From Terebella lapidaria (lineage: Eukaryota; Annelida; Polychaeta; Terebellida; Terebellidae): a DNA stretch of 64,000 nt. Below the pieces are notes generated by a model that saw only the letters and a program-made list of their open reading frames with translations, had not been told where the DNA came from and made no database searches. This document shows positions 5,399 to 53,473 of the stretch, one piece after another. The translations under genes were made by a program, and so were the position numbers. Location of the stretch: contig OX424562.1 of assembly GCA_949152475.1 (NCBI GenBank), positions 4,154,001 through 4,218,000 on the forward strand. Direction: 5' to 3'. The stretch's first letter is position 1. Every line of letters starts with the position of its first letter.

Positions 5399-5770
5399 AA
5401 GGCATTTCGGCAGAAATGCCTTTATGGTTTTAGCAGAATTTTTTTTTTTTTCTTTTTTTTTTTTTTTGCTTCTTCCGCCGTTTTGGTTTCCGGACGATAA
5501 CTTTAGATTGCCTTGATGGATCCTTATCAAATTTTCACCACTAGTCAGAAATGATATGTGGAAGAACCCTATTCTTTTTTAGCCGGCTGCGAGGTCCGTG
5601 AGGTCCGTGAGGATGAAATCAAGGTTTTTGGTTTCCGGACGATAACTCAAAAAATATTCAGGCAATGGATGCAGAACTCTGTATGGATGTTCATATACCA
5701 CCAGGGAAGAACCCTATTGATTTTGGGATCAATCCGTCAAATGACCTTTGACCTAGAGGTCAAAATAATT

Positions 5771-7078
5771 AGGCATCCCGATTGAAAATCGGGAGGCCTT
5801 ATGTTTTTGTCTGTTTTTTTTTTTTTTTTTTTTTTTTTTTTTCCGCCGTTTGGTTTCCGGATCATAACTCTTGAACGCCTTGATCTATCTTTCCGAAATT
5901 TTCACAGCTCATCCGAAATACTTTACTCCTAACCCCTTTTGTTTTTCGTCGAGATCCGAAATCCAAGATGGCCGCCAGCGGCCGATTCCTCTCAATGTCA
6001 TAATTTGATTCAGGCAATTTCCAGGAGAAAAAAATTTTTTGGGTGTATTTTTTTTTTTTTTGACTTGGAATTTTTCCCTTGCCTGCCCCCATGCAGATGT
6101 AATACTGTAACTGAGCCATGCTACTGTATTCACTGACTGCAGCCTGCATGTCCAGCATGAGGCTAGGCTCTGCCCTCTCAGCCAGTGCAGTATATGAGAG
6201 CCCTGCTCAGTAATGCCTTACAAGATCAGCCACTCTGTCCAGCACAGTGATAGGCTCCGCCCCTCTCAGCCAGCCCTGCTCAGTTAGCCTTACAAGATCA
6301 GCCAGTCTTGTCCAGCACAGCAATATAGGCTCCGCCCTCTCAGCCAGCCCTGCTCAGTCATGCCTGACAAGTGATACAGCTAGCATGTCCAACTTGACCC
6401 CAGGCTCATATCCATGCATAATCCCTCACTCCCCCCTTCAAAGCCTGGTTTACTAGTGTGTGTACATGGTAAAAGAATGAAGTTCCACCCCACAGAATAC
6501 AATAGTTGGTTAATAAGCCACACACATGACACAACATGCTTGGGGGATGATTTGCCCTGCCTGCATTTATTTTGTACAAACATGTATTGTTTGAATGTTT
6601 TGTTATTCAACTCTATTTCACATGCAATGACCAAATCATCATTGTTTTAGTTAGCTGGGAAATGTTTAGCTTTGGTTATAATGTGAATGCGAAAATTCCG
6701 CTGTATTGTACAAGTTTTGAAATCACAAAATTGGCCAAGATGACACAGCATTCTTTTAGTCACGTATCATTTTACATTTGACAGGAGCACCTGAAAATAT
6801 CACGAACATCCTGATTAAATATACTAGTATTCTGAATATTGGCTGGGTAGTACTCTGAATATTGGCTGGGTAATTGTCCATTCATTTTGGGTGGCAAATG
6901 TCTGGTGGGCCAAGTTGTCAAGATGATAGAAAGCAGTTCTGGTAAGAAACTGTCTGATGAGCTCTCACTCTTACCCACATACAATGGCCTATGTATCCTT
7001 TTTTCTAGGTCCAGTATGACCATTTGAAATAATAACAAATTGGGGGATGCCACAAAGCCTATAGGCTTTTATGTCTAG
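5771..7078 (+). mobile_element. F4: Helentron-like element nested in F3
   Basis: The 5' end AGGCATCCCGATTG forms a hairpin with its continuation (ATCGGGAGGCC). The 3' end has GGGATGCC, then the hairpin AAAGCCTATAGGCTTT, then ATGTCTAG at 7078. The flanks AATAATT | TTTTTGC rejoin into the uninterrupted F3 sequence seen at about 28419-28434 and 28738-28752. This proves insertion into a T-tract without target duplication. The interior includes short repeats around 6140-6360 (CAGCCAGCCCTGCTCAGT words) and no credible gene. Confidence 0.75.
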
Positions 7079-7429
7079 TTTTTTGCTCATTCATCCTTGA
7101 GGCTTCCTGCATATCTCAAAAACGGTGCGTCGTAGAGCGAAACGGGCGTTATTTTCGGACTCGTCGTCCTAGACAAACATGTCTATGGGGTATTTTTTTT
7201 TTTTTGATTCGACTCCGAGGTCCGTGAGGTCCGTGAGGATGAAATCAAGGCCGATTATGAGACTTGGTTTCCAGACGATAACTCGAAAAATATTTAGGCA
7301 ATAGTTGCAGAACTTTGCATGGAGGTTTATATACCACCAGGGAAGAAACCTATCGATTTTGGGATTGATCCGTCAAACGACCATTGACCTAGAGGTCGAA
7401 ATAACTTTTTGCTGACTCATCCTTGAGGC

Positions 7430-8335
7430 TTCCTGCATATCTCGGAAACGGTACGTCGTAGAGCGAAACTGATGTTATTTTCGGACTCGTCGCCCTAGAC
7501 AAACATGTCTAAGGGGTATTATGGATGAACTTTGACCTTGACCCGAAATTTTTTTGCCGAGTTGGCATTTTTCGTTTTCGTCGATATCTCGGAAACGGTG
7601 CGTCGTAGAGCGAAACGGACGTTATTTTTGGACTCGTCGCCTTGGACAAACATGTCTGAGGAGTTTTATGGATGAACTTTGACCTTGACCCGAAATTTTT
7701 TTGCCAAGTCGGCATTTTTCGTTTTCGTCGATATCTTGGAAAACGGTGCATCATAGAGCGAAACGGACATTATTTTCGGACTCGTCGTCTAGACAAACAT
7801 GTCTTGAAGGTATTATGGATGAACTTTGACCTTGACCCGAAATTTTTTTGCCGAGTTGGCATTTTTCGTTTCCGTTGATATCTGGGAAGCGGTGTGTCGT
7901 AGAGCGAAACAGACGTTATTTTCGGACTCGTCACCCTAGACAAACATGTCTTAAAGTTATTATGGATGAACTTTGACCTTGACCCGAAATTTTTTTGCCG
8001 AGTTGGCATTTTTCGTTTCCGTTGATATCTGGGAAGCGGTGTGTCGTAGAGCGAAACGGACGTTATTTTCGGACTCGTCACCCTAGACAAACATGTCTTA
8101 AAGTTGTTATGGATGAACTTTGACCTTGACCCGAAATTTTTTTGCCGAGTCGGCATTTTTCGTCGATATCTTGGAAACGGTGCGTCATAGAGCGAAACGG
8201 ACGTTATTTTTGGACTCATCGACCTAGACAAACATGCCGGGGGGGGGGGGGGGGGGGTATGATGGATGAACTTTGACCTTGACTAGAAATTTTTTTCGCT
8301 GAGTGTGTCATAGAGCCTGTGACAAAGATGTTTTA
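7430..8335 (+). repeat. 147-bp tandem array inside F3 copy a
   Basis: About six units carry the ordered words ATATCTCGGAAACGGT, GTAGAGCGAAACGGACGTTA, GACAAACATGTCT and TGAACTTTGACCTTGACCC. Unit spacing is about 147 bp, with small indels. A run of about 20 G lies at 8238-8257. Several ORFs on both strands across the array are repeat translations, not genes. Confidence 0.85.
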
Positions 8336-9619
8336 AATATTACGAATTAGTCCTAACACCGAAATGCCTCCAAGGCATCTTTAGGCCTTGACGTCTAGTT
8401 TCAGTCGAGATGCCCCATGGCATCTTTAGGCCTTGTGTGACATCTAGTTTGGTAGGAAATTGCCCTTTGACTCCCAGATGAAGTATGCCAAGTTATAGAT
8501 CGATAACATTTAGCATCGCAAAAGGGTCAAGGTTTACACTATACTAAAGTCGGCGCATAATTTATTGGCGTGAACATATCTAATGAAATCTCGGAACTTA
8601 GTGACTTGTTTTATATGAAATTCAGGCAACGGTTGAACGAGCCTGTGACCTAAGTTGCTGACGTAAATTCCAAGTTTGTTTTTCACACAGGAGACTACTA
8701 TTTCAATAAATACGAATCTAAATGGGATTTTACCATTGTAACAACGAGCGGGAAAGCAGACAGTCAAAACAGTGATGAATGCCAATGCAACAGCTCATTA
8801 ATGCAAAGCGAAATCATTGGTCTGACCAGCAGTGTGCAACGGTCCGAAAAATAACATGTGATGGCGTTATGCTGTTCAAAAAATGGATAGTGGTCACAGT
8901 TTGATTTCCCGGAATGGCTGAGAGTATTATTCTATATTTGGGTGAGATACTATATGTCACATGCAGAATAGGACACAAAGTTTTGTTTGATTGCAGTATT
9001 TTGTTATCGCTAAACAAATGAAAATATTCAGTATCCAGCAATATATGAATTGAGGATAACGGGTGTCTAATTGTATCCCCCGAACAAAGTTCGGCGGATA
9101 CTATGGATTTACGATCGTCGCGCCGCCGCCGCGTCCCCGTCCGCAGACACTTTCTTGTGAACGCGCTGCAGGTTGCAAATATGAACCGATTTTGATAATA
9201 TTTTATATGGACATGTCTTATGGTGAGATCTGGACACCTATCGATTTTGGTTGCCATAGCAACCAAAATAGCCGATTGGCGTAACATTTTGTGCTCAAAT
9301 TAGCCTGTTTAACACACATGGGTTGTGAACGCTCTACGGGTGGGAGTTTTCAATGAATGATGATGAAATCGCACAGGCTCAATGAGAAAGACCATCACAC
9401 GAAACTTATTGTTTTTCAGAATGATCGAATAAATATTAATAAGTTTGAAAGGTTAACTTATTACGACAATTAAAATACCTACTTTGACATGTGTGATCAC
9501 TCCAGTAACCTGTACTATGAAAGCAAATTGCACTAGATTCTTGTTCAGAATACAGAACTGATGTTTTTGGTGAAAAAAGAACAATATTACTGAATAAGTT
9601 AACATTGGTTTTACTAGTT

Positions 9620-10470
9620 AAGTCTATTATTGACCACAATAAAAATAGTTAAGACGAGAAACATTTATTATTGAGCTCAACAAGGTAAAGGTTTTGTCCA
9701 GTACAAATTTCATGGGTGTAACTGAATAATTTAACATTATTTTTAATAGTTAAGTCTATTATTGACCACAATAAAAATAGTTAAGACAAGAAATATTTAT
9801 TATTAACCTCAACAAGGTAAATGTTTTGTCCAGTACAAATTTCATTGGTGTAACCGAATAAGTTAACATTATTTTCACTAGTTAAGTCTATTATTGACCA
9901 CAATAAAAATAGTTAAGTCTATTATTGACCACAATAAAAATAGTTAAGATGAGAAATATTTATTATTAAGCTCAACAAGGTGAAAGTATGTCCAGTACAG
10001 ATTTCATGGGTGTACTGAATAAGTTAACATTATTTTTACTAGTTTAGTCTATTATTGACCACAATAAAAATAGTTAAGACAAGAAATATTTATTATTGGG
10101 CTCAACAAGGTAAAGATTCTGTCCAGTAGACATTTTATTTCTGTAACCAAATAAGTTAACATTTTTTTTTGCTAGTTAAGTCTATTATTGACCTCAAAAA
10201 AAATAGTTAAGGTGAGAAACAATTATTATTGAGCTCAACAAGGTTAAGGTTTTGTCCAGAGGAAATTTCTGGGTGTAACCGAATAAGTTAACTTTATTTT
10301 TACATGTTAAGTCTATTATTGACCACAATGAAAATAGTTAAGACAAGAAATATTTATTATTGGGCTCAACAAGGTGAAGGCTTTGTCCAGTAGAGATTTT
10401 ATGGCTGTGACCAAATAAGTCAACATTATTTTTTTGCTAGTTAAGTCTATTATTGATCACAATAGCTTTT
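9620..10470 (+). repeat. About 132-bp tandem array
   Basis: AGTCTATTATTGACCACAAT starts at 9621, 9753, 9885, 10046, 10179, 10310 and 10444, giving a ~132-bp period over about seven units. A partial 31-bp duplication sits at 9915. Very AT-rich, with no coding potential. Confidence 0.85.
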
Positions 10471-11135
10471 TATGAAAACATTGATCAACTTTTACTTTGA
10501 ATTTCAACTTGAGACCATGTTTGGCTCAAATTATGAGTTAAAATATAACTTATGGTGAAAAATTCGATCTGGCTCCAATTTTGTCATCTTGAAATGCAGT
10601 TTTGGTCAACTTTTACTTTGATTTTCAACTTGTTTGGCACATATTATGAGTCGAAATATAACTTATGGTGAAAAGTTCGATCTGGCTCCATCTTGAAATG
10701 CAGTTTTGGTCAATTTTTAGTTTGAATTTCAACTTGAAACCAAGTTTGGCACATATTATGAGTTGAAATATAACTCATGGCGAAAAGTTTGATCTGGGTC
10801 CAATTTCGTCATCTTAAAATGCAGTTTTGGTCAACTTTTAGTTTGAATTTCAACTTGAAATCAAGTTGGGCAGGTATTATGAGTTAAAATATAACTCATG
10901 ACGAAAAGTTTGATCTGGCTCCAATTTTGTCATCTTGAAATGCAGTTTTGATTACCTTTTACTTTGAATTTCAACTTGAAACCATGTTTGGCACATACAT
11001 ATATTATGGATCGAAATATAACTTATGGTGAGAAGTTCAATCTAGCTCCAATTTTGTCATCTTGAAATGCATTTTTGGTCAAATTTTACTTTGAATTTCA
11101 ACTTGGAACCAAGTTTGTAAAATATTCTGAGTTGA
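10470..11135 (+). repeat. About 121-bp tandem array
   Basis: Five to six units carry GAAATGCAGTTTTGGTCAA and ATTTCAACTTGAAACCA. Starts at about 10591, 10695, 10816, 10937 and 11063 give a ~121-bp period with one shorter unit. It abuts the 132-bp array but is unrelated to it by eye. Confidence 0.8.
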
Positions 11136-12461
11136 AATATAAATAGGTGAAAAGATTGATCTATGATTCTGTATTTTCGTTATTTTATCAAACATGTCGA
11201 ATGGAAATTCATATAAAGAGATTTCAGTGGTGATTTTGAATTCGACCTTCAATAACCTCGGAAAATCAGTGCAGCAATTTTGGTGGGGAAAAGAAAACAG
11301 TTGTGACTTGAGATTTAACATTTCTATGGTAATCTTTTTTAGCCCTTGCTCTAGTTTTTCACACTTGACAGTGATATATTTGGGGCAACAGAGATGATAG
11401 GGCTACGGGGGATACACCCAAGCGGTCGTAGGCGACCGGAAGCGTCTAGTTTTTGACCAACTTTGTATCGTGCCCGGCTATACTCGCGTTGGTCTGGCCT
11501 GAGTCAAATTATAAACTCAGCCCAGTATTGGTTAAGGGACTGTCTCCAAGATGCCATGCCTATGGAACAGATTTCAGAAAAATACCAAACTCTTTGTGCT
11601 GGATTGCGCCGTTGATCACTCAAACAAAATATTGATCATAATAATTTCATCATAATATTGATCATAATAAATTTCAACGTACCGCACGGCCTATATTCCT
11701 TGGCAGATGAGCCAAAATACACGTACCCATTTTATCATACATGTATACATATTCTGCGAGCGTAACATGCATTTGTCTTTCAACAGCAGTAACTGTTAGA
11801 TGTATGAATAACTCCTGTGGCTATTGTGTGATTGTGATTTCTTGAATGCAAAATATATTTTCAAGCACAAGTGATAAAACAAATTTTCTTTTGTGACCAT
11901 TGTATTTTCTATGAGATGGCCCCTATTCAGATCAGCTGTTCCATTGATTTGTGTCAATCCCATACAGCATCAAAATGGCAAGCTAGAATTCCCATGTTAA
12001 AACCCCATAAGGATATATATTTTCCTAAATATACCGACGAGAAATGCACGCGACAGAAAAACAGCCATTGCTTCATAATGGTCACAGTGCCATTTTCACT
12101 TTATATAAATTTCATTTAATACAAGTCAGTAAATTCTGAAATATGACAAGATAGGTTCGCGCCAATAAATTATGCGCCGACTTTAGCACTAGTAGCAGCG
12201 TGATACCTACACAGCCATAGTGCTAGTAGGTGCTCACCCCTCTCAGACTATGGCTGGTTTATAAGCAATCCGTATTTAGCAATTTCTTCATTGACCCGTG
12301 CAAACCACAGAAAGCTTGAATCACTACAACCCGGACATGTGATTGTTTTATGGATTATGTCCTCGGTGGGTTCAACAAGACAGCAATGTCAGAGTTGTTT
12401 CTTCTATTGTTCATTGTAGGCTGGTGGAGGGTGGTGCCCCCTGCTAAGAGCAGACAGAAGC

Positions 12462-17884: not shown

Positions 17885-20800
17885 GTGGGTTCTATTCTAA
17901 AACAGCCATGTTAGCAGCTGCATGGTTACTTAGAACTAATGCTGCCTTCAAACCAATTTGTGAAGACGGTACGCACCGCCGGTGACGTCGACTGTCACGG
18001 GCGGTGAATGTTGGTTTGAACGTAGTTCCTGGCAGTTGACTACCGCCAGCAGTTGGGGAAAGGGGCAAATTTGGGGACTGTTGTCAAATTTGACAACACC
18101 CCAAGAGTTGTCAAATTTGCCCCTTTCCCCAACTGACCGCCAGCTATTTCACTGGCGGCAAAAATGGAGGCGCTAAAAAATTTCCCACTTCACCGCTAGT
18201 GAACACCGTTGGTAACTTGGCTTGAATGCAAATCACTGGTGGTGAACTGGGAAACACCGTCTCCACAAGTTGGCTAGAAGGCAGCATTTGATCTACTTGT
18301 CTTGTGGTAGAACCTACTAGTGATGGAAGAGGTAGATCTAGATCTAAAAGAGGTACACTAGATCTAGATTCTAACTAATCTCAGTCATCACTTGGTCACG
18401 GAGTCGCTGATTGATGGTGACATTGGATGATGGAAGAAACATTTTTGCCACATACAGTGTATTGTTGCATTCCCTCCTCAATTTTTCGTGCGCATTCCAG
18501 ATCGCATTCCCTCAGTTCCTTATGGTGTAATTACAACCGATCCACATCGTATACTCGTGTAGAATTGGTTTTCTAGGACAAATTTATCTTGGAAGATACA
18601 GGTGACGTGCCTATTCCCGAGCGGGTACTTAAGCCTGAGCACCCCCTACTACGGTCGTCTACGTCAATTATCCTTAAGCTTTGCACTGTATGCAATCGTT
18701 TTGTCATGACTTGCACCTTGTACAATCAACGACGACGATTATCTGGGGGGTGCTCGGGTTTAAGTCCCCGCTCGGAAATAGGCACGTCATCTATATATTA
18801 TGTGTCTGGTAAAATAAATATGTATTTTGGTAAAATATTCACGAACAATCGCTAATTTGTTCACATTGAGAGATTTTGAACAGGTCATCAACAGATTTGC
18901 AGCGGCCATCGCTAAAACCATGCATGCACAAAATGTCAGGCAAGCTTCAAGCCACGCGAGTACGTTTGGCTCTACGCCCTTGGTCAACTTCACCTATAAG
19001 ATCGCGAAAGAACTCCATGTTTCAGAAGAGTGGAAAGAACTCCATGTTTCAGAAGAGTGGTGGCTGACATTTCAGTCATGTCATGTTTTATTGTTTCGAA
19101 AAGAGTAGTACTGGTTTTTAGCTTACCGGCCCTTTGGGCCGATAAGCTATTATCGTGGTTTTTCGTCCGTCGTCCGTCGTTTTGAATCGTTTTTGCCGAT
19201 TTGGCGGCCATTTTTGACGAAAAATTGCCAATTTTGGACTTTGGTGGCCATTTTCTCAAAAACTGTCTGATCAGTTTTGAGATTTTTGTTTCAAAACATT
19301 CCTCTCATGTACCTCTATGACATGTATAGGTTTCGTTGCCCTTGAATCGCCGGTCTGCGTGTGGCGGCCATTTTGATTTTTTGACGGGTCGGCGAAAAAA
19401 AAATTGTTTGTCCCAAATCAAGTCACTACCGTATTCGTTTTGAGCCATTTCCAGCAAAAAAAAAAAAATTTTTTTTTTGACCATTGAAAATTTTTTTGGA
19501 CAGAAAATTTCACCCGATTTTTCCTTCATAATGGGAGATATGCACAGTGATCTCATAGAACACTTCAAGATAGAGCCTAAGTATTGGCACATTCAAATGG
19601 GAAATCATATATTGCGGTTTGAGTGGTGACCTTGAATTTGACCTTCAATGACCTTGAGAGGTCAAAACGACCTTTTTTGTCAAAAAAACGATGAATTTTG
19701 CCTTTGTTGGTCATTTTCTCGAAATCTATTCAGACAGTTTTCCTCAAAATCATGTATAAGATTCTCCTTATGTACCTTTGTGATGTGTATAAATTTCGTT
19801 GCCTTTGAAATGACGGTCTGCGTGGGGCGGCCATTTTGATTTTTTGACGAGTCGGCAAAAAAATTTTTTTTTGTCCCAAATCAAGTCACTATTCGTTTTG
19901 AGCCATTTCCAGCAAAAAAAGAAAAAAAAAATTTTTTTGACCATTGAAAATTATTTTGGACTTACAAAATTTCACCCAATTTTCCCTTCATAATGGGAGA
20001 TATGCAGAGTAATCTCATAGAATACTTCAAGATAGAGCCTAAGTATTGGCACATTCAAATGGGAAATCATATATTGCTGTTTGAGTGGTGACCTTGAATT
20101 TGACCTTCTATGACCTTGAAAGGTCAAAACGACCTTTTTTGTCGAAAAAACGATGAATTTTGCCTTTAGTGGTCATTTTCTCGAAATCTATTCAGACAGT
20201 TTTCCTCAAAATCATGTATAAGATTCTCCTCATGTACCTTTGTGATGTGTATAAATTTCGTTGCCTTTGAATCGACTATCTGTGAAAATTTGTCATTAAC
20301 AAAAAAAATCTTTCAAGATGTAATTCGATTTTGTATTATAGTCCATACAGAAAATGTGTTTCTATCAACATTTACGAAGATGTTTCAACATATTGATTTT
20401 AACATCAGTGTAACAATTTATATGTATTCAGTATTCTATGCAATTCACATGATTGCCGGTAAGCTACAGCACCCTTGTTATGTTGTTTGATCCCATCCCA
20501 CTCTTTACTGGGGACAGTGAAAATTTTTGTGTGTCGTTTTTAGGTTACCGGACCTATGGTCCGATAACCTATTGCCGTCACGTTGCGTCCGTCGTCCGTC
20601 CGTCCGTCGTCCGTCCACATTTTTATCTTTAAAGTTTACAGGCGGATTTTCCTGAAATTTTGCACAAAGTTGCCTAAAAATATTTCAAGAGGGGGTTATT
20701 TTTTAGTTTTTTGATTTTCGCATTTTTCTCAAAATGCCGGCCATTTTTGACGAAAAATGGCCAATTTTTGGACTTTGGCGGCCATTTTCTCAAAAACTGT

Positions 20801-23800
20801 CTGATCAGTTTTGAGATTTTTGTTTCAAAAGATTCCCCTTATGTACCTTTATGATGTGTATAAGTTTTGTTGCCCTTGAATCGCCGGTCTCCGTGTGGCG
20901 GCCATTTTGAATTTTTGACGGGTCGGCAAAAAAAATTTTTTTTGTCCCAAATCGCGTTACTATCCATTTTGGGTCATTTCTAGACAAAAAATTTTTTTCA
21001 CCCTTTGAGAAAAATTTTGGACTTAGAAAATTTTCGGCACTTTTTTCCTTCATAATGAGAGCTGCAGGGACTGTACTCATAGAACGCTTGAAGATAGAGC
21101 TTAGATATTGGCACTTTCAAATGGAAAGTCATATATGGCGACTTGTGTGGTGACCTTGAATTTGACCTTGGATGACCTTGAAAGGTCAAAACAGCCATTT
21201 TTGGGTCGAGAAATGCTCAAATTTGCACCTGGCCTGTCTTTTCTCGAAAACTGTCTGATCAGTTTTGAGATTATTGTTTCAAAATATTCCCCTTATGTAC
21301 CTTTATGATGTTTATAAGTTTTGTTGCCCTTGAATCGCCAGTCTCCGTGTGGCGGCCATTTTGAATTTTTGTTTGCCCCAAATCGCGTTACTATTCATTT
21401 TGGGTCATTTCTAGACAAAAAAAAAATTTTCACCCTTTGAAAAAAATTTTGGACTTAGAAAATTTTCGGCACTTTTTTCCTTCATAATGGGAGCTGCCAG
21501 GACTGTACTCATAGTACGCTTGAAGATAGAGCTTAGATATTGGCACTTTCAAATAGGAAGTCATATATAGCGAGTTGGGAGGTGACCTTGAATTTGACCT
21601 TTGATGACCTTGAAAGGTCTAAACAGCCATTTTTGGGTGAAAAAATGCCCAAATTTGCCTCTACAGATGAAATGCATGTAGATAGAGCTTCAGTTTGCAT
21701 TATGAACATATAGGAAGTCATATATGAAACAACTGATGATGACCTTGATTTTGACCTTGGATGACCTTGAGTGCTAAATGTCTGACTTGAAATCTTGAAA
21801 GTGGCCTCTGAAGCATAAACTTTTGCACATACAGGTTAGGATTGTGTATAAGCCTGTAAAAGAGTCATGGCACATTTTTTGGTGACCTTGAACTTGACCT
21901 TAAAGACCTTGAAGGGCGAATCTCAAAATCTGAAATTGGCCTCTACACACGAAATACTTGTTGATAAAACTTTTTTTTTTGCCGACTCGGCACTTCCTGT
22001 TTGGCCGTATCTCAGAAACGGTGAGTCGTAGAGCGAAACGGAGCTCAATTCCGGCCTTCTGTATTATGAACATACGAAGTCATATGCAGCATACCTGATG
22101 GTGACATTGAGATTCACAAAGATGACCTTGACTGGTAAATCTCAAAATCATATGTCACCTACAATGCTTGAAACCAAAATTGTCCGGTAACCTATCTTAG
22201 CCCTTGGGCTAATTTTTCAAACAGTAGTGCCTGATGTTTCATTATAATGTCTAATACTAGTATGTACATGTATGTTCATGGACAGAATTTTGGTGAGAAT
22301 CCAGTTCTTGCAAAGATTCTCACAAAATGGCCCTTGATTCTCGCAAAATATATATATATGAGAACAGGATTCTCGCAAATTTTCTGAAATTTTCACCCTG
22401 ATGTTTGATCATGTTTCAGAGAGCGGTGGCTGATATGGGGCTGGGGGATGAAGCGATTCAAGCTGACGAAAAGACTCAGAAGAGTCCTGGACAGATGTTG
22501 AAGGAGGGCCACACAGGACTGCTAACGACAAACTTGAACCAATCACCGGAAAACCTGACCACATTCCGAGTGTCATACAAGAAACCCAGCCCACCGAACG
22601 TCCGACAGAAAGGTGAGCTCTTTCAGTCGTGCTTGATTCTCTGCAACAGAAAACATGAAAACAAGCACTTAATCAGTGAGTGAAAGAAGACTTTTTATTG
22701 CTGCGATTTCATTGATGGCACCTATATATGTTCTTTACAGGAAGCAAAGCTGAAATGTTGGAAAAATTACTTTATGAGCAAGTGAGGTGAGCATTATACG
22801 AATACTACTAATCCACTTGTAACATAGTAGAACAAGTAGTACATGTACTAGCATTATAGCTATATTCCAGGCTGTTTGCAGCGTTGAATGCCAGTTATTA
22901 TTATTTTATGAGCAGCAAGGAAGTTGAGGCAGAATTCAATGCACCTCCGGAGCAGGAACCGATGGAGTCAGTGACACACACGGACTTCAACATTGCGGAC
23001 TTTGTGCCACGCAAACAGGAGCCAACAGCTGTAAGTACAAGAAAATGGCAATATATATGTGCAAAAGTCTAGTACTTACATGTAGTCCATGGTCACATGA
23101 TTTATGCCATAAACATAGAAGAGAGATGGACTGCCAACTTGACCTCAGTGACCTCGAGCTTGCGTCCAGAGGAAGATTGGTATTTTATTTCCAGCTTGAA
23201 GTTTCATGGAAAATTGAATTGTCATAATGCGTCAAATACCATACATGATGTTATCACTCGGAAGATCGTCAAGATTAAAAATTAGCCCAAGGGCTAAGAA
23301 TGGTTACCGGACAATGTGTATTTTAGATATTAGCCTTTTGTCCCATAACCTTGAAAGTAAGATCATTGGTCAATTCAAGGTCACCAGAACATTCAGCCCA
23401 TATCATTTCTAGCATGTTCACAATTGATTCCTAAGCTGTAAAGTCGATATTAAGTGAGATACTAGCCATTTTGTGATCTGACCTTGAAAATGAGCTCAAA
23501 GGTCAAGTTCAAGGTCATGAGAATATTCAGCATATATAATTTCCAATATGTTCGCAATTGACTCCTAAGCTGTAAAGTCGATAACAAATGAGATATGAAC
23601 CTTTTTTGTTCTATGACCTTGAAAATGAGGTGAAGGTCAAATTCAAGGTCACCAAAATATTCAGCAAATATCATTCCCTATATGTCCACTATGGATTACT
23701 AAGCTGTAAAGTCGATAATGAGCGAGATATTACCCATTTTGTTCTCTGACCTTGAAAATACATGTAAGGTAAGGTCAAAGGTCAAATTCAAGGTCACCAG

Positions 23801-26800
23801 AATATTCAACATATATCATTTCCTATAAGTTGACAATTGATTGCTAAGCTGTAAAGTCAATGATAAGCAAGATATTAGCCAATTTGTGCTCTGACCTTGA
23901 AAATGAGGTCAGAGGTCAAATTCAAGGTCATGAGAATATTCAGCATATATCATTTCCTATATGCGCACAATTGATTTCTAAGCTGTAAAGTCGATAGTAA
24001 GCCAGATATTGGCCATTTTGTACTATGACCTTGAAAATAAGGTCAAAGGTCAAATTCAAGGTCATCACAATATTCGGCGTATATCATTTCCTTTATGTCC
24101 ACAATTGATTCCTAAGCTGTAAAGTCGATAAGCGAGATATTGGCCATTTTGTGCTCTGACCTTGAAAATGAGGTCAGAGGTCAAAATCAAGGTCACGAAA
24201 ATATTCAGTATATATCATTTCCTATATGTCCACAATTGATTCCTAATCTCTAATCTCAATATTAAGTGAGATATTAGGCAAAATGTGTCCCATTATAAAG
24301 CATAGGGCGATTTAGCATGTGAAAGTCCCATTTGGGCCGAGTTTGGGGGCAGAATGGCCCACTTCAAGCGATTCAAGCGCAACAAAACTTATACAGCTCA
24401 CAGGGGTATATATGAGGAGTGTTATGCATCAACGAGATTAAAAGTTACTGAACAGATTTTGAGAAAACGACCGTCAAAGTCCAAAACTGGCCATTTTTCA
24501 ACTAAAATGGCCGATCTGACCTTGAAACCGAGGTCAGAGGTCAAATACAAGGTCACGAGAATATTCAGCATATATCATTCCCTATATGTCCACAATTGAT
24601 TCCTAGTCTCTAATCTCAATATTAAGTGAGATATTAGGCTTAATGTGTCCCATTATGAAGCATAGGAGAATTTAACATGGGAAAGTCCCATTTGGGCCGA
24701 GTTTGGCCCAAAATGGCCCACTTCGAGTGATTCAAGCGCGATGAAACTTATACACATCACAGGAGTACATATGAGGAGTGTTGTGTATCAAAAAGAAAAA
24801 AAGTTACTGAACAGTTTTTGAGAAAATGGCCGCCAAAGTCCAAAATCAGGCATTTTTCGTCGAAAACGGCCGCCATTTTGAAAATAGTGCGAAAATCGAA
24901 AAACTAAAAAAAAACTATCCTGGAAATATTTCTAGGTATTTTTGTGCAAAATTTCAGAAAGATTCGACCGTAAACTTTAAAGATAAAAATGTGAACGGAC
25001 GACGGATGGCTAGACGGACGACGGACGCAACGCCACGGCAATAGGTTATCGGACCAAAGGTCCGGTAACCTAAAAAAAATTAGCCCAAAGGCTAAGATAG
25101 GTTACCGGACAATTTTGGTTTGGATAATGGAATGTAACAGACCTTGAGATTTATCAATCAAGGTTATCAGTGTGAACATTATGACCATGAGATTTACCAA
25201 TCAAGGTCATCCATGTGAACTTCAATGTCACCATTACATGTACGGGTGCGGTATTTGATTTTCTATATGTTCATAATACAAAGATACGTCTGGGTGCAAG
25301 TGTACGTATAGGCCGCTCAGGGCAGGCCAATGTACACATTCTCAGTCAGACATTTGGCACTCAAGGTCATCTGAGGTCAAGTTCAAGGTCATCATTAGTT
25401 GTGCCATATATGTCTTCCTATATGTTCATAATGCAAACATAAGCCTTATCTGCAAGCATTTCATCTATAGAGGCAAATCTGGGCATTTTTTGACACAGAA
25501 ATGGCTGTTTTGACCTTTCAAGGTCATCCAAGGTCAAATTCAAGGTCACCACACAAGTTGCCATATATGACTTTCCATTTGAAAGTGCCAATTTCTAAGC
25601 TCTATCTTCAGGCGTTCTATGAGTACAGTTCTGGCAGCTCTCATTATGAAGGAAAAAATTGCCAACAATTTTCTAAGTCCAAACATTTTTTCAAAGGGTG
25701 ACATTTTTTTCCCCTGGAAATGGCCCAAAATGGATAGTAATGCGATTTGGGGTGAAAAAATTTTTTTTCGCCCACTCGTCAAAAATTCAAAATGGCCGCC
25801 ACACGCAGACCGGCGATTCAAGGGCAACCAAACTTATACACATCACAGAGGTCCATAAGGGGAATCTTTTGAAACAAAAATCTCAAAACCGTCTGAACAG
25901 TTTTCGAGAAAAGACAGACAAGGTGCAAATTTGGGCATTTTTCGACCCAAAAATGGCTGTTTTGACATTTCAAGGTCATCCAAGGTCAAATTCAAGGTCA
26001 CCACACAAGTCGCCATATATGACTTCCCATTTGAAAGTGCCAATTTCTAAGCTCTATCTTCAGGCGTTCTATGAGTACAGTTATGGCAGCTCCCATTATG
26101 AAGGAAAAAATTGCCAAAAATTTTCTAAGTTCAAAATTTTTTTCAAAGGGTGAAAAATTTTTTTTGCCTGGAAATGGCCCAAAATGGATAGTAATGCGAT
26201 TTGTGCCGCCTCGTCAAAAATTCAAAATGGCCGCCCCACGGAGACCGGCGATTCAAGGGCAACCAAACTTATACACATCACAGAGGTCCATAAGGGGAAT
26301 CTTTTGAAACAAAAATCTCAAAACTGTCTAAACAGTTTTTGAGAAAATGGCCGTCAAAGTCCAAAATTGGGCACTTTTCAACAAAAATGGCCGCCATTTT
26401 GAGGAAAATGCGAAAATCAAAAAACGAAAAAAAAACTTTCCTGGGAATATTTTTAGCTGTTTTTGTGCGAAATTTCAGAAAGATTCGACCGTAAACTTTA
26501 AAGATAAAAATGTGGACGGACGACAGACGACGGACGGACGGATGCCGGACGCAACGCCATGCCAATAGGTTATCGGACCATAGGTCCGGTAACCTAACAA
26601 TTGTAATTATTACGTTGACAATGGAAGTTAAACTACCGTCTTCCTCTGTCCTTTTGTGACCTCAAGCTCGATAACTACAAACAGAGAGATTGATATCAGA
26701 GTTGGCAGTCCATCTCTTCCATGTCTATGATTTATGCTACCTTTATTTAAATGCAGATTGCTTTCCCTGAAGTGGCATCAGTTGCTGGCTTTTTGTTTGA

Positions 26801-34354: not shown

Positions 34355-34846
34355 AAAACGAAAAAATGTCTCAGGGTATTGGCCCAAGGAATGCTGTGGT
34401 GAATTTTCAGAAAAATTCATCAAGACAAAAAAGTTATTCGCCGGACGGACGACGGACAGAAAACCACGACAATAGCTTATCGGCCCATATAGGCTGGTAA
34501 GCTAAAAATGGGCTGGATATGACTCAAAAGAGATAGTGACTTAATTTCGGACCAAAATTGTTTTTTCGCCGACCCATCGGAAAATCAAAATGGCCGCCAT
34601 TGTTAAAGAATCAAGAACAATGAAACTTATACACATCAGAGGGTTACATATGGGAAGTATTCTTCGATTAGAGGAAAAATTACTGAGCAGATTTCGAGAA
34701 GATGGCTGCCAAATTCAAGGTCATTGAAGTTCAAATTCAAGGTCACCACTGTAATTTATGATTTCTTATTTGAATGTGGTAATATTTATGCTGTATCTTG
34801 ATGTGTTCTTGAAATTTACTCCATACTTCTCCCATTATGAGGGAAG

Positions 34847-40918: not shown

Positions 40919-41160
40919 TTAAATATTCACACAAACTTTATGATATGAACAACCAACAAATATTTTCTCAATATATATAAATTGTTTCATTGATACTATT
41001 CTGCGATGATATGAAACATAAGATAATAGTTTATTGAAACATGTTTATTCGAGCTACTTCTACTGGATTATACAATTATCACTGTTTATATTATTAACTC
41101 CCGATATTAGTAACCAGGCTTTACCAGTCCGAAATACCCTACTAGTTTATTTGTCAACCG

Positions 41161-43012: not shown

Positions 43013-43044
<32 letters not shown>

Positions 43045-44259: not shown

Positions 44260-45965
44260 CAGGCCCGTAGGCAGGGGGGGGGGGGGGTTACGCCCCCCAC
44301 CCCCTGATAAGTAATCCCCTGAAAACTGATGTCAATATTGTAATATCGTAATATGATGTATGAATAAGAGATGAGAATAAATGGACCATGTTTAGCATTA
44401 CAGGTATGATTGTGTGACAAGTGCCACCGGACCGGACCTATGGTCTGATAACCTATTAATTGGCATGGCGTTGTGTCCGTCGTCTGCGTTGTCCGCGTCA
44501 GCGTCGTCCGTCCACATTTTTATCTTTAAAGTTTACAGGTGAATCTTTCTGAAATTTTGCACAAAAATGCCTTAAAATATTTTGAAAAGGAGGTATTTTC
44601 TTGTTTTTTGATTTTCGCATTTTTTTCAAAATGGCGGCCATTTTTTAAGAAAAGCAGCTGATTTCTGACTTTGGCGGCCATATTCTCAAAAACTGTTCAG
44701 ACAGTTCATGTTTTTGTTTCAAAAGATTGCCCTCATATACCTCTGTGAAGTGTATAAGTTTGGTTGCCCCTGAATCGCAGGTCTGCATGTGGCGGCCATT
44801 TTCATTTTCTCGACTGGTCCCAAATGGGACTTTCTCATGTTAAATTCTCCTATGCTTCATAATGGGGCACATTTTTTCCAAATATCTCACTTAATATTAA
44901 AATTAGAGAATAGGAATCAATTGTGGACATATAGGAAAAGATATATGCTGAATATTCTCATGACATTGAATTTGACCTTTGATCTCATTTTCAAGGTCAC
45001 AGGACAAAATGGCTAATATCTCGCTTATTATCGATTTTACAGCTAGCTTAGGAGTCAATTGTGAACATATAGGAAACGATATACATGTATACAGATCATT
45101 CTCTTGACCTTGAATTTTACCTTTGACCTAAATTTCAAGGTCAAAGGACAAAATGACTAATATTTCGCTTATTGTTGACTTTACAGCTTAGGAATCAATT
45201 GTGAACATATAGAAAATGATATATGCTGAATATTATCGTGACCTTGAATTTGACATCTGACCTCAGTTTTTGAAGGTCAGAGCACAAAATGGCTATTATC
45301 TCGCTTATTATCGACTTTACAGCTTAGGAATCAATTGTGGACATATAGGAAATGATATATGCCGAATATTCTGATGACCTTGAATTTGACCTTTGACCTC
45401 ATTTCAAGGTCACAGGACAAAATGGCTAATATTTCACTTATTATCGATTTTACACCTTAGGGATCAATTGTGGACATATAGGAAATGATATATGCTGAAT
45501 ATTCTCGTGACCTTGAATTTGACCTCTGACTCACTTTCAAGGTCGAGAGCACGAAATGGCTAATATCTCGCTTATTATCGATTTCACAGCTTAGGAATCA
45601 GTTGTGGACATACTATAAACATGATAAATGATATATGCTGGATATTCTCGTGACCTTAAATTGACCAACAACCTTACTTTTGAGGTCATGGGACAAAAGG
45701 CTAATATCTGAAATATATATTTTCCGGTAACCTTTCTTAGCCTTTCTTAGCCCTTGGGCTAATTTTACGAATATGTGTATCTGATTCCAAATATTTGACA
45801 TACACATGTTAATAATTAACTCTGAAGTATACCTCAGAAGTGTTCTGTGAGCTTATGCTGCCCCCCGAACCCCCAGAGCGTGTATGACGAGCGATCGCTA
45901 CGCTCGCTTCGCTTTTTCACATGCAATATTAAGCCTTCTTATTTTTTGGGTAAACCCCCGGCCTG
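44260..45965. mobile_element. CAGGCC-ended element split by F1 copy d
   Basis: Starts CAGGCCCGTAGGCAGGGGG and ends ACCCCCGGCCTG, flanked by TTATG on both sides (44255-44259 and 45966-45970), a 5-bp target duplication. The right part has the GCTCGCTTCGC word seen in many invertebrate short repeats. Non-coding. F1 copy d interrupts it. Confidence 0.6.
44421..45762 (+). mobile_element. F1 copy d with 134-bp array
   Basis: Degraded 5' hairpin (ACCGGACCTATGGTCTGATAACC) near 44421, then CGTCCACATTTTTATC. The 3' end GGTAACCTTTCTTAG with the CCCTTGGGCTAA hairpin ends at 45762, with a small local duplication of CCTTTCTTAG. About six 134-bp units lie at about 44880-45700. Confidence 0.7.
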
Positions 45966-47906: not shown

Positions 47907-48313
47907 AAACTGATGCCTCGGAGGCATTTCGGTGTTACGACTAATTCGTAATATTTGAAAAATGTTTGCCACGGGCTCTATGACACACCGTTTGCTAGAT
48001 ATTGACGAAAATTAAAAATGTCGACTCAGTGAAAAAAAATTCGGGTCAAGGTCAAAGTTCATCCATAATACCTTTAAGACATGTTTGTCTAGGGCGAGAA
48101 GTCCGAAAATAACGTCTGTTTCGCTCTACGACGCACCGTTTCCGAGATATCGACGAAAACGAAAAATGCCGACTCGGCAAAAATATTTCGGGTCGAAGCC
48201 AAAGTTCATTCATAATACCCTTTAGATATGTTTGTCGAAGAGGACGAGTCTGAAAATAACTTCCGTTTCACTCTACGACGCACCGTTTCCGAGTTATCGT
48301 CGAAACAAAAAAA

Positions 48314-49695
48314 TTAGGCCGAGGGCCAAAGATAGGTTACCGGACAATGTTTAATATTTTAGATGTTAGCCAGGCCACTGGTCAAGATAATATTCAGCAT
48401 ATATAATATTAAGCATATATCATGTCCACAGTTGATTGCTAAGCTGTAAATTCAATAATCAGAGAGATATCAGCAATTTTGTGCTGTGGCCTTGAAAATG
48501 AAAGCAAAGTTCAAATTCAAGGTCATCAAAATATTCAGTGTACATTGTATATCATTTTCTTTATGTCCACAATTGATTCCCAAGCCATACAGACAATAGA
48601 GGAGCAAGATATGAGCAAGTTTGTCCTGTGACCTTGAAAATGAGGTCAGAGGTCAAATTCAAGATCACGAGAATATTCAGCATATATCATTTCCTATATA
48701 TCCACAATTGATTCCTCTGCTGTAAAATCAATAATAAGTGAGATATTAGCCATTTTCTCCTGTGACCTTGAAAATGAGGTCAAAGGTAAAATTCAAGGTC
48801 ATGACAATAATTTGCACATATCATTTCCTACCAGTATATGTTCATAACTGATTCCTAAGCTGTAAAGTCGATAACAAGCGAGATATTAGCCATTTTGTCC
48901 TATGACCTTGAAAACGGGGTCAAAGGTCAAATTTAAGGTCATCAGAATATTCAGTATATATCATTTCCTATATGTCCACAATTGATTCCTAAGCTGTAGA
49001 GTCGATAATAAGCGAGATATAAGCCATTTTGTACTATGACCTTGAAAATGGGGTCAAAGGTCAAATTCAAGGCCATCAGAATATTCAGCATATATCATTT
49101 CCTATGTGTCCACAATTGATTCCTAAGCTGTAGAGTCAATAATAAGCGAGATATAAGCCATTTTGTGCTCTGACCTTGAAACTGAGGTCAGATGTCAAAT
49201 TCAAGGTCACGAGAATATTCAGCATATATCATTTCCTATATGTCCACAATTGATTCCTAGTCTCTAATCTCAATTTTAAGTGAGATATTAGGCATAATGT
49301 TTTCCATTATAAAGCATAGGAGAATTTAACATGGAAAAGTCCCATTTGGGCCAATTTGGGCCAAAATGGCCCACTTCGAGCGATTGGAGCGCAACGAAAT
49401 TTATAGACATCATAGGAGTACATATAAGGAGTGTTATGTATCAAAAAGAAAAAAAGTCACTGAACAGATTTTGAGAAAATGGCCGCCAAAGTCCAAAATC
49501 AGGCATTTTTCGTTGAAAACGGCCGCCATTTTGGAAAAAATGCAAAAATAAAAAAAATAGGTATTAGTTAGGTATTTTTGTGCAAAATTTCAGAAAAATT
49601 CGCCCGTAAACAAAAAAGATAAAAATGTGGATGACGACGGACGACGGACGCAACGCCATGCCAACAGATTATCGGACCATAGGTCCGGTAACCTA
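48314..49695 (-). mobile_element. F1 copy i inside F3 copy c
   Basis: 3' hairpin TTAGGCCGAGGGCCAA (a compensated variant of the usual TTAGCCC..GGGCTAA) at 48314. 5' hairpin ends CCTA at 49695. Seven or so 134-bp units at 48380-49290. Flanking F3 array sequence resumes as AAAATGCCGACTCGG. Confidence 0.8.
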
Positions 49696-50932
49696 AAAAT
49701 GCCGACTCGGCAAAAAAATTTCGGGTCAAGGACAAAGTTCATCCATCATACCCCTTAGACATGTTTGTCTAGGGCGACGAGTCCGGAAATAACGTCCGTT
49801 TAGCTCTTCGATGCACCGTTCCCGAGATATCGACGAAAACGAAAAATGCTGACTGGGCAAAAAAATTTCAGGTCAAGGTCAAAGTTCATCCATAATACCT
49901 TTAAGACATGTTTGTCTACGGCGACGAGTCCGAAAATAACGTCCGTTTCGCTCTACGACGCACCGTTTCCGAGATATCGACGAAAACGAAAAATGCCGAC
50001 TCCGATAAAAAATTTCGGGTGAAGGTCAAAGTTCATCCATAATACCCCTCAGACATGTTTGTCTAGGGTGACGAGTCAGAAAATAACGTCCATTTTGCTC
50101 TATGACGCACCGTTTCCGAGATATCGACGAAAACGAAATAGCCGACTCGGCAAAAAAAATTCGGGTCAAGGTCAAACTTCATCCATAATACCCCTTAGAC
50201 ATGTTTGTCTAGGGCGACGAGTCCGAAAATAACGTCCGTTTCGCTCTACGACGTACCGTTTCCGAGATATGCAGGAAGCCTCAAGGATGAGTCAGCAAAA
50301 AGTTATTTCGACCTCTAGGTCAAAGGTCGTTTGACGGATCAATCCCAAAATTGATAGGATTCTTCCCTGGTGGTATATAAACCACCATGCAAAGTTCTGC
50401 AACTATTGCCTGAATATTTTTCGAGTTATCGTCCGGAAACCAAGTCTCATAATCGGCCTTGATTTCATCCTCACGGACCTCACGGACCTCGGAGTCGAAT
50501 AAAAAAAAAAAAACCCCATAGACATGTTTGTCTAGGGCGACGAGTCCGAAAATACATGTAACGTCCGTTTCACTCTACGATGCACCGTTTCTGAGATATG
50601 CAGGAAGCCTCAAGGATGAATCAGCAAAAAATTATTTTGACCTCTAGGTCAAAGATTGATCCCAAGACGGATTGATCCCAAAATGAACAGGGTTCTTCCC
50701 TGGTGGTATATGAACCCCCATGCAGAGTTCTGCATCTATTGCCTGAATATTTTCCGAGTTATCGTCCGGAAACCAAAAACCTTGATTTCATCCTCACGGA
50801 CCTCGGAGCCGGCTCAAAAAGAATAGGGTTCTTCCACATATCATTTCTGACTAGTGGTGAAAATTTGACAAGGATCCATCAAGGCAATCTAAAGTTATCG
50901 TCCGGAAACCAAACGGCGGAAGAAGAAAAAAA

Positions 50933-53175
50933 TTAGCCCAAGGGCTACGATAGGTTACCGGACAATATATAATAGCTATTTTGTTCCGTGGCCTTGAAAA
51001 TAAGGTCACTGGTCAAAACTGGTCAAAGTCAAGAGAGTATTCCGCATACCAGTATATGATTTCCTATAAGCTTACAATTGAAAACTGAGCTGTAAATTGA
51101 ATAATAAGCGAGATATTAGCCATTTTGTGCTCTGACCTTGAAAATCAGATCAAAAAGGGTCAAATTCAAGGTCATGACAATATTCAGAATATAACATTTC
51201 CTATAGGTTCATAATTGATTCCTAAGCTGTAAAGTCGATACTAAGCGAGATATTAGCCATTTTGTGCTCTTGACCTTGAAAATAAGGTCAAAGATCAAAT
51301 TCAAGGTCACGACAATGTTCAGCATATATCCTTCCCTATATGTCCACAATTGATCATTATGCTGTAAAGTCGATAATAAGCGACATTTCCGCCATTTTGT
51401 CATGTGACCTAGAAACTGAGGTCAAAGGTCAAATTCAAGGTCATGAAAATATTCGGCATATATCATTTCCTACATGTCAACAATTGATTCTCAAGTTGTA
51501 AAGTCAACAATTAACGAAAAATTAGCCATTTTGTGCTTTGACCTTGAAAATCAGATCAAAGGTCAAATTCAAGGTCATGACAATATTAAGAATATAACAT
51601 TTCCCATAGGTTCATAATTGATTCCTAAGCTGTAAAGTCGATAATAAGCGAGATATTTCCCATTTTGTGCTCTTGACCTTGAAAATGAGGTCAAAGATCA
51701 AATTCAAGGTCACGACAATATTCAGCACATATCATTTCCTATATGTCCACAATTGATCCTTAAGCTGTAAAGTCGATAATAAGCGACATATTAGCCATTT
51801 TGCCATGTGACCTAGAAACTGAGGTCAAAGGTCAAATTCAAGGTCATGACAATATTCGGCATATATCATTTCCTACATGTCAACAATTGATTCTCAAGTT
51901 GTAAAGTCGACGATAACAAATTATTAGCCATTTTGTGCTCTGACCTTGAAAATTAGGTCAAAGGTCAAATTTAAGGTCATCAAAATATTCGGACTATATC
52001 ATTTCCTATATGTGCACAATTGATTCCTAAGCTGTAAAGTCGATAATAAGCGACATATTAGCCATTTTGTGCTTAGAGATTGAAAATAAGGTCAAAGTTC
52101 AAATTCAAGGTCATAAAAATATTTGGACTATATCATTCCCTATATGTGCACAATTGATTCCTATGCTGTAAAGTCGATAATAAGCGAGATATTAGCCATT
52201 TTGTGCTCTGACCTTGAAAATCAGATCACAGGTCAAATTCAAGGTCATGACAATATTCAGAATATAACATTTCCTATAGGTTTCCAATTGATTCCTAAGC
52301 TGTAAAGTCGATAATAAGCGAGATATTAACCATTTTGTGCTCTTGACCTTGAAAATGAGGTCAGAGGTGAAATTCAAGGTCATGACAATATTCTGCATAT
52401 ATCATTTCCTATATGTTCATAATTGATTCCTAAGCTGTAAAGTCGATAACAAGCGAGATATTAGCCATTTTGTCCTGTGACCTTGAAAATTAGGTCAAAG
52501 GTCAAATTCAAGGTCATCAGAATATTCAGCAGATATCATTTCCTATATGTCCACAATTGATCCCTAAGCTGTGAGGTTGATAATAAGCGAGATATAAGCC
52601 ATTTTGTGCTCTGACCTTGAAAATGAGGTTAGAGGTCAAATTCAAGGTCACGAGAATATTCAGCATATATCATTTCCTATATGTCCACAATTGATTCCTA
52701 GTCTCTAATCTCAATATTAGGTGAGATATTAGGCATAATGTGTCCCATTATAAAGCATAGGAGAATTTAACATGGGAAAGTCCCATTTGGGACCTGTCGT
52801 GAAAATGAAAATGGCCGCCACACGCAGACCTGCGATTCAGGGGCAACGAAACTTATATACATCACAGAGGTATATGAGGGGAATCTTTTGAAATAGTAAT
52901 CTCAAAACTATCTGAACAGTTTTTCAGAAAATGGCCACCAAAGTCAGAAATCGGTCGTTTTTCGTCGAAAATGGCCGCCATTTTGAAGAAAACGCGAAAA
53001 TCAAAAAACTAAAAAATACCCCCTTTTTGAATTATTTTTAGGCATTTTTGTGCAAAATTTCAGAAAGATTCACTTGTAAACTTTAAAGATGAAAATGTGG
53101 ACGGACGACGCCGACGACGCACGACGGACGCAACGCCATGCCAATAGGTTATCGGACCATAGGTCCGGTAACCTA
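50933..53175 (-). mobile_element. F1 copy j inside F3 copy c
   Basis: 3' hairpin TTAGCCCAAGGGCTA at 50933. 5' hairpin (GGTTATCGGACC..GGTCCGGTAACC) ends at 53175. A 134-bp array of about thirteen units at 51000-52720 is the longest of its kind here. Inserted in the A-rich (T-tract) leader of F3 copy c. Confidence 0.8.
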
Positions 53176-53473
53176 AAAAAGAAGAAGAAAAAAAAAAAAA
53201 TTCTGCTAAAACCATGAAGGCATTTCTGCCGAAATGCCTTAATTCAATATTCGTCCCGCTCCCTACTTTGGACCTGCACTCCGCCCTTTCAACCTCTTAT
53301 AGAGCCTTCTTACGCAGCAGTAGTGTTAGATTGAACTTCCTAAACTAATTTAGTAGGTTTAAAAGAACTTGAAGTTTGAGAGTGAATATTGTGTGAAAGT
53401 AATTTGACTTGAAAATAGCTTGCACGTGAAAGTAATTAATGGAAGAAAGCAAAAACGTCGTGCAATAAACTTC

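Follow-up and report, generated by a model that had tools for sequence, protein, structure and literature searches.

What are the gene-less repeats that crowd one stretch of the genome of the polychaete Terebella lapidaria, and what moves them? The window, that is, the whole 64,000-nucleotide stretch of DNA analysed here (GenBank assembly GCA_949152475.1, contig OX424562.1; C8:4154001-4218000 of the 761.6-Mb genome in 438 contigs), had been annotated by a model from its letters (the sequence-only reading) as holding several Helentron-like families built on one structural rule. We charted the repeats by a tandem-repeat run, self-comparison, direct reading and a hairpin scan, and found that nested, gene-less repeats of five end-types, labelled F1, F2, F2b, F3 and F5, occupy about 25 kb of the window (the F1 of the sequence-only reading is equated with ours through positions 5399 and 53240 only). 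The repeats are very probably rolling-circle transposons, nested and non-autonomous, of the Helitron2/Helentron group (Helitron2/Helentron-derived elements, HINEs), with F2 moved by a Helentron that has Rep, PIF1-type helicase and C-terminal endonuclease.

The repeats form interspersed, often nested blocks at 5.4-11.4, 19.1-22.2, 23.3-26.6, 27.9-34.5, 44.4-45.8 and 47.9-53.2 kb (Table 1). Internal tandem arrays, as reported earlier, are present with five unit lengths (147, 134, 131, 121 and 462 bp). Among open reading frames (ORFs) of at least 120 aa, taken by length and without a domain scan, the longest lying fully within the listed elements have 153 and 151 aa, and one of 157 aa overlaps the F5 5' edge; by this ORF list the elements are non-coding, as HINEs are.

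Five families share one end design

Direct reading of the five families revealed a common rule: the 5' end is a palindrome, one of its arms lies inverted near the 3' end, and a hairpin follows (3' hairpins were identified by reading, without thermodynamic scoring). The ends are, for F1, 5' AAGGCATTTCGGCAGAAATGCCTT and 3' ACCGAAATGCCT-CCA-AGGCAT...GACGTCTAG; for F2, 5' TAGGTTACCGGACC...GGTCCGATAACCTA and 3' GTCCGGTAACCTATCTTAGCCCTTGGGCTAA; for F2b, 5' TAGCTTACCGGCC...GGCCGATAAGCTA and 3' GCCGGTAAGCTACAGCACCCTTGGTGCTATG; for F3, 5' AGGCATCCCGATT...AATCGGGAGGCCT and 3' GGGGGATGCCACAAAGCCTATAGGCTTTTATGTCTAG; and for F5, 5' GTATCCCCCGAA...TTCGGCGGATAC and 3' CGGGGGATACACCCAAGCGGTCGTAGGCGACCGGAAGCGTCTAG. 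We compared the 5' 35 nt with the 3' 60 nt of every family in a 5x5 matrix of longest exact inverted matches, using one representative copy per end. Own-family matches reached 11 (F1), 13 (F2), 12 (F2b), 8 (F3) and 10 nt (F5), and cross-family matches at most 7 nt, in agreement with the grammar of self-folding 5' repeat, inverted 3' copy and second hairpin set out in the sequence-only reading. When 1500 random 60-mers were drawn from the window, which may include further copies of the tested family, the own score was reached by 5 (F1), 14 (F2), 2 (F2b), 26 (F3) and 1 (F5); F3 is the weakest case for an own-end match.

The families had also been described as unrelated in sequence, which fails for two pairs. 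Between F2 and F2b, the three matched arms carry compensating changes (G to C, C to G and C to G), and Bao and Jurka described a compensatory change of like kind in two Culex elements (PMC3627910). F1 and F3 are 77% identical over 115 bp directly inside the 5' palindrome, partly T-tract (5439-5552 versus 5806-5919; self-comparison). The GTCTAG terminus pointed out earlier stands for F1, F3 and F5, all of which finish so, but the word alone proves little because only five of its 40 occurrences in the window (15.5 expected) are element ends (7078, 8398, 11449, 30161 and 31016); we dropped it as a diagnostic word, as 24 of the 35 non-terminal occurrences fall, by position, in units of the 147-bp type.

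Seven of the ten ends (those other than the 5' ends of F2b, F3 and F5) were counted across the whole genome, as lower bounds, with exact patterns only and one flank base constrained to non-G. The F1 3' end had 3429 matches and its 5' end 1699; for F2 the numbers were 1331 (3') and 4850 (5'), and for the 3' ends of F2b, F3 and F5 they were 1456, 908 and 1932, respectively. Reversed-pattern controls gave 0 matches for all seven.

Insertion sites and two classes of 3' end

Flank statistics were taken from the first 100 listed places per search, all on contig C1. To the left of F1 (100 listed of 1699) there was T at -5 in 94, A or T at -4 in 95, A at -3 in 88, and T at both -2 and -1 in 100; to its right (100 listed of 3429) T stood at +1 in 99 and at +2 in 97, beyond which the sequence was unconstrained. 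F2 right flanks (100 listed of 1331) carried T in 96, 100, 99 and 97 at +1 to +4, and F5 right flanks (62 shown of 1932) in 62/62 at +1 and 58/62 at +2. At the loci examined, two F3 copies followed TAATT and TTATT, and five F5 copies followed TAATT (twice), TCATT (once) and TATTT (twice); F1 copies in the window followed TAATT, TAGTT and GAATT. The earlier statement that all families sit in T-tracts therefore describes F2 and the few F2b copies seen but not F1, which by the position counts above follows TWATT.

F1 was found inserted twice at one identical point of the F2 134-bp unit (loci L063 and L064), where the empty site reads CATATATCATTTCC and the filled site CATATATCATT/F1/TTTCC (here and below, a slash marks a junction). 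With two T's dropped, the joined flanks of F1 in L064 match host copies gap-free (118 positions, best identity 94.9%), as do those of F3 in F1 in the window against F1 copies (118 positions, 92.4%); for F1 in L063, 1-2 gaps are retained in the rows shown. Gap-free joins of this kind indicate that there is no duplication beyond about two T's. Across the four insertions tested, the reconstructed empty sites gave about two added T's per insertion and nothing longer (the F1-in-F2 insertion at 28057 is ambiguous and uncounted). Insertion without duplication, as the sequence-only reading had it, is thus upheld for anything longer than TT and qualified by the gain of about two T's; target duplications, which it had named as the finding that would tell against it, went no further than about TT in these four. 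Its other refuting finding, the same termini around a DDE transposase, did not turn up either, though no search aimed at it was made. The two T's may be owned by the element or may represent a TT duplication; Thomas et al. suggested that the flanking T's may belong to their elements (PMC4067079).

The families fell into two classes. In class 1 (F1, F3 and F5) the 3' hairpin is followed by a 10-20 nt tail with GTCTAG and the sites lie after TWATT-like sequence; in class 2 (F2 and F2b) the element ends at the hairpin or at most 3 nt beyond, and the sites lie in T-tracts. The split draws on the F1, F2 and F5 samples, on two copies of F3 and on a small number of F2b copies. A TNAT/T target is known for FoHeli1/2, and TTTT/T (or C) and TT for Helitron2 and Helentrons (PMC5148889); what is least expected here is that the two target types occur together in one genome and follow the type of 3' end. 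Because F1, F3 and F5 have the GTCTAG end and TWATT-like targets in common, a shared enzyme type is indicated for the three and not one each.

A candidate autonomous partner for F2

A Helitron_like_N search of the genome returned 150 scored matches of 234 candidates, mostly within long open frames, and 3' flanks were read for eleven Rep-helicase (RepHel) lineages or single loci (A, B, C, b, d, e, g, i and outliers on C5, C12 and C14). The F2 3' end terminates two of the eleven, B and g: between two lineage-B copies, 89-93% alike, matching ceases at the F2 3' end, the alignment extending 4 T's past it, and two lineage-g copies likewise finish in an F2-type 3' end. An F2-ended insertion with a RepHel frame was found at C9:36037527-36057178 (19.65 kb). 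There ATGCTTTATAATGGGGCTCATTTT stands directly before the F2 5' palindrome (L068 2628) and TTTTCCAAATATCTCACTTAATATTGAG after the F2 3' end (L046 3579), flanks that we read as together forming the interior of another F2 element and that, once joined, agree best with two to three T's dropped. The C9 open frame has 2526 aa and a Rep-side domain by profile search. A rule scan of this locus (12.1 x 4.0 kb; inverted match of at least 9 nt, 6-bp hairpin seed in the 5' copy, CTAR or CTATG plus TT tail) gave three candidate pairs, with the expected tail in the F2 pair only; in the flanks of copies A, A2, C1, C2, g and g2 the same scan gave no tailed pair, the 5' reads of g and g2 being shorter than the C9 distance.

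The lineage-B open frame, of 2514 aa, matched Pfam Helitron_like_N (100.8 bits), PIF1 (72.9 bits), DUF6570 and, weakly, Herpes_teg_N (26.0 bits; cut-off 25), and its C-terminal 221 aa matched Exo_endo_phos (26.2 bits; cut-off 24.5); the endonuclease is 25% identical to that of lineage A over 198 aa. Rep and a superfamily 1 (SF1)/PIF1 helicase in one ORF, with a C-terminal apurinic/apyrimidinic (AP)-like endonuclease, are the attributes of a Helentron. F2 is best read as a Helentron family because the F2-ended 19.65-kb insertion appears to enclose an open Rep-helicase-endonuclease frame, and the check proposed earlier, a search for Rep-helicase ORFs flanked by family termini, has in C9 its positive result for F2. 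The further proposal of a different autonomous partner for each family goes beyond these results, in which F2 alone has a candidate partner.

Several points weigh against this assignment. In the C9 insertion, the left host match is only ~24 nt, the joined-flank alignments carry 7-10 gaps, the pairing of the two ends comes from one locus, and ~6.6 kb of the interior lay outside the sequence fetched; in the other copies examined, the 5' sequence read either fell short or held F5 ends with no F2 5' end. On a 1420-aa piece of the lineage-B protein, Exo_endo_phos scored 21.3 bits, under the cut-off, and a PDB sequence search with the lineage-B endonuclease gave no match. No partner for F1, F2b, F3 or F5 was found in the RepHel flanks read, the F1 copy at 53240(-) follows GAATT, outside the motif, and a 2-bp TT duplication remains compatible with the empty sites.

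The other lineages were screened with an F1/F2 end-word scan and a fuzzy search of all loci examined for the ends of all five families (identical matches listed once). Lineages A, C, b, d, e and i were rejected as partners, as they showed no family end oriented like the RepHel ORF; one F2 3' end in L039 lies on the strand opposite to that ORF. At the outlier loci on C5, C12 and C14, no such ends were present in 8.9-9.0 kb. Lineages A (with endonuclease) and C are either very large or part of segmental duplications: two A copies on different contigs, and likewise two C copies, share 99.5-99.9% identity along the flanks read (L039-L040, L043-L044, L047-L050), and because they match throughout both flanks the reads stop short of their ends.

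Five copies belonging to the F2-ended lineages (B, c15, B2, g2 and c2; L041, L045, L061, L062, L066, L067) carry F5 ends on the upstream side of their RepHel ORF, and lineage g has a weaker F5-end match there. That the autonomous F2 element begins with F5 was rejected, as homology between copies extends upstream of the F5 5' end; since this is the case for c2 and B2, an F5 element has apparently long been carried inside the autonomous F2 element. Also, a hairpin GTGTCCACCC...GGGTGGACAC, or nearly so, is kept right past the RepHel stop codon in lineages B and g (L042 ~4361-4391; near the ORF end in L051 and L056), within conserved 3' sequence.

Weighing other explanations

A first alternative, which we regard as unlikely, is that F1, F3 and F5 are canonical Helitron1 elements (TT...CTAG between A and T) and only F2 and F2b are of Helentron type. 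The CTAG terminus does fit CTRR, the 3' hairpins of F3 and F5 lie ~10-11 nt from the end, and the A at -3 in 88/100 F1 left flanks and the F1 empty site CATATATCA/TTTCC fit insertion between A and T without duplication, a fit that extends to F1 only in part. The 5' ends, however, read AAGG, TAGG, TAGC, AGGC and GTAT instead of TC and carry palindromes; by definition Helitron1 is without the 5' palindrome and the asymmetric terminal inverted repeat (ATIR) that are both present here (PMC3627910); and the T at the second right-flank base in 97/100 (F1) and 58/62 (F5) is superfluous for A/T insertion. Very improbable is the idea that the repeats are miniature inverted-repeat transposable elements (MITEs) moved by a cut-and-paste DDE transposase, or foldback elements, with TT target duplication. 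Although palindromic ends at high copy number are MITE-like and about two T's were gained in each tested insertion, the ends are asymmetric, with the inverted copy subterminal at the 3' side and followed by a different hairpin where terminal inverted repeats at the extremes would be expected, no fixed-length duplication beyond about TT was seen, and the RepHel frame between F2 ends already disfavours it for F2. That the similar ends arose by convergence or chance in T-rich, palindrome-rich sequence can practically be set aside, for while the scan used finds 144 hairpins in the window, arrays also generate GTCTAG and 26/1500 random pieces reach the F3 own score, own matches are 8-13 nt against at most 7 across families, each counted end has 908-4,850 identical copies with zero reversed-pattern matches, and these counts together with the empty sites already refute it.

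Assignment to Helitron2/Helentron-derived elements, as made by the sequence-only reading, is right as far as tested: the ends follow the published rule, with a pair of ATIRs or subterminal inverted repeats (subTIRs) and a 3' hairpin in five families, and F2 termini, alone among the five in the RepHel flanks read, stand around a Rep-helicase-endonuclease ORF.

A model of movement

Each family would be defined by its 5' palindrome, a matched inverted 3' copy (ATIR) and a 3' hairpin, and a Helentron uniting a Rep domain, PIF1-type helicase and C-terminal endonuclease would mobilise F2. In line with published models, Rep would nick at the T beside the 5' hairpin, the helicase would displace the strand, and pairing of the 3' ATIR with the 5' ATIR, together with the 3' hairpin, would signal the stop, as proposed in PMC3627910. 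The released strand, perhaps circular, would then be joined to a nicked target, either TWAT/T (F1, F3 and F5) or a T-tract (F2 and F2b); for a circle intermediate there is an experimental hint from the FoHelis (PMC5148889). The central arrays would travel as passengers, as in the oyster Cg_HINEs (PMC7492417). F1, F3 and F5 probably depend on a further RepHel type, other than those identified here.

We suggest, tentatively, that end recognition may be modular, the ATIR with the 5' hairpin serving as a freely changing family address and the 3' terminus with the target forming a separate class module, so that one RepHel type per class could serve several families and new families could emerge when the three matched arms change in concert. 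In this reading the modules would be GTCTAG ends with TWAT/T (F1, F3 and F5) and hairpin-terminal CTAA or CTATG with T-tracts (F2 and F2b). Across the families of this one genome, the 5' arm, its hairpin partner and the 3' copy vary in step, a natural series that makes the model in which ATIR pairing sets the replication end point directly testable.

Relation to published elements

The end design is in print for Helitron2, Helentron and HINE elements (PMC3627910, PMC4067079, PMC7492417), and the TNAT/T target for Fusarium (PMC5148889). HINE-Mo-1 to 7 and the Helentrons of mite, Culex and Drosophila (PMC4067079) share with our families the palindromic 5' subterminal repeat, its inverted 3' copy and the 3' palindrome. 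HINE-Mo also shares tandem repeats in some copies, a TT preference, T's that are possibly element-owned and, if they are so here, the lack of target modification, and an autonomous partner with RepHel and endonuclease and ends of identical type. Compared by description, what differs here is the extended TWATT target in one class and the 19.65-kb C9 copy with a worn F5 inside. Cg_HINE of the Pacific oyster (PMC7492417) has in common with our elements the left subTIR with complementary inverted repeat and GTCC-type microsatellite, satellite-like central arrays, the right subTIR with palindrome, T-rich sites and many parallel families per genome, and the F2 layout, again by description, closely matches it; in that study no autonomous element was relatable to Cg_HINE, in contrast to the F2-ended RepHel element found here. 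Helitron2 (PMC3627910) likewise has a hairpin-forming 5' ATIR, a 3' ATIR just upstream of the 3' hairpin, a 5' T, and compensatory changes between related families, as in F2 versus F2b; PMC4067079 gives Helitron2 as encoding no endonuclease, whereas the candidate F2 partner does encode one. FoHeli1/2 of Fusarium oxysporum (PMC5148889) insert at TNAT/T, like F1 at TWAT/T (in one place of that paper the insertion is given as TNAT and A), and have ATIRs and hairpins at both ends; unlike our families they are fungal, have no endonuclease reported, and end in ATATTTT, not GTCTAG.

The suggestion that the families may be undescribed can apply at most to these particular families, as the grammar, the internal arrays and the T/T or TNAT/T targets are already in print; no description of F1, F2, F2b, F3 or F5 was found in the literature searched (Repbase lay outside it), which speaks weakly for novelty. 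What the present analysis adds is the coexistence of the two target classes within a single genome, and a candidate autonomous Helentron with matching ends for a HINE family that carries arrays, a link left unresolved in the oyster (PMC7492417). The remaining biology is as already published.

Copies in the window and neighbouring features

Table 1. Element copies in the window, with the position of the 5' palindrome where one was found.
Element	Position	Strand	5' palindrome	Particulars
F1	5399..8398	+	5399	5' palindrome AAGGCATTTCGGCAGAAATGCCTT; 147-bp array; 3' ...ACCGAAATGCCTCCAAGGCATCTTTAGGCCTTGACGTCTAG/TT; preceded by CTAATT
F3, nested in F1	5771..7078	+	5771	5' AGGCATCCCGATTGAAAATCGGGAGGCCT; 3' GGGGGATGCCACAAAGCCTATAGGCTTTTATGTCTAG/TT
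F5	9073..11449	+	9073	5' GTATCCCCCGAACAAAGTTCGGCGGATAC after CTAATT; 131-bp array 9589-10464; 121-bp array 10481-11163; degenerate F2-like 3' end at ~11354; own 3' end CGGGGGATACACCCAAGCGGTCGTAGGCGACCGGAAGCGTCTAG/TT
F2b	19119..20482	+	19119	5' TAGCTTACCGGCCCTTTGGGCCGATAAGCTA; 462-bp repeat x2; 3' end worn
F2	20541..22212	+	20541	5' TAGGTTACCGGACCTATGGTCCGATAACCTA; GTCC-rich microsatellite; 3' GTCCGGTAACCTATCTTAGCCCTTGGGCTAA/TTTTT
F2	23282..25072	-	25072(-)	134-bp array; adjoins 3' end of F2 copy 25080..26596
F2	25080..26596	-	26596(-)	
F2	27897..31016	+	27897	Split by F1 copy 28057-30161; 3' end GTAACCTATCTTAGTGTTTGGTCTAG (by eye), terminating in GTCTAG (31016)
F1, nested in F2	28057..30161	+	28057	147-bp array, ~9 units
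F2b	31247..34504	-	34504(-)	3' GCCGGTAAGCTACAGCACCCTTGGTGCTATG/TTTTTT; split by F2 copies (F2 3' ends 32065 +, 32340 -)
F2	44428..45762	+		134-bp array; 5' end worn, limit approximate, by eye
F2, nested in F1	48314..49695	-		Lineage-g type 3' end GTCCGGTAACCTATCTTTGGCCCTCGGCCTAA; limits by eye
F2, nested in F1 T-tract	50933..53175	-	53175(-)	134-bp array, ~12.5 units
F1	47911..53240	-	53240(-)	Split by two F2 copies; 3' end altered past GGCATC (by eye)

On reading, the first F1 copy seems to be lodged within an older F1-like element (4808-5398 and ~8399-8447), and a palindrome with 29-bp arms lies beside the first F1 array at 4741-4807. At 39607-40920, F2-type 134-bp units pass directly into a 64-copy array of the 16-bp repeat CACACGAGGTCTCATT.

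Apart from these families, an inverted 78-bp repeat, 89.7% identical and with a palindrome in each copy (43177-43252 and 47157-47234), possibly marks the ends of a 4-kb DNA transposon. A retroelement with a reverse transcriptase ORF (RVT_1) occupies 56259-60832 on the minus strand; it is possibly DIRS-like, its neighbouring ORF having no Pfam match at 1e-3 and looking tyrosine recombinase-like by eye. A 676-aa open frame at 37192-39222, also without a Pfam match at 1e-3, looks Mab-21-like by eye. Finally, two ORFs at 12462-15085, with matches to Fringe/CHGN and CHGN, are likely a chondroitin synthase-type gene (chondroitin GalNAc-transferase).

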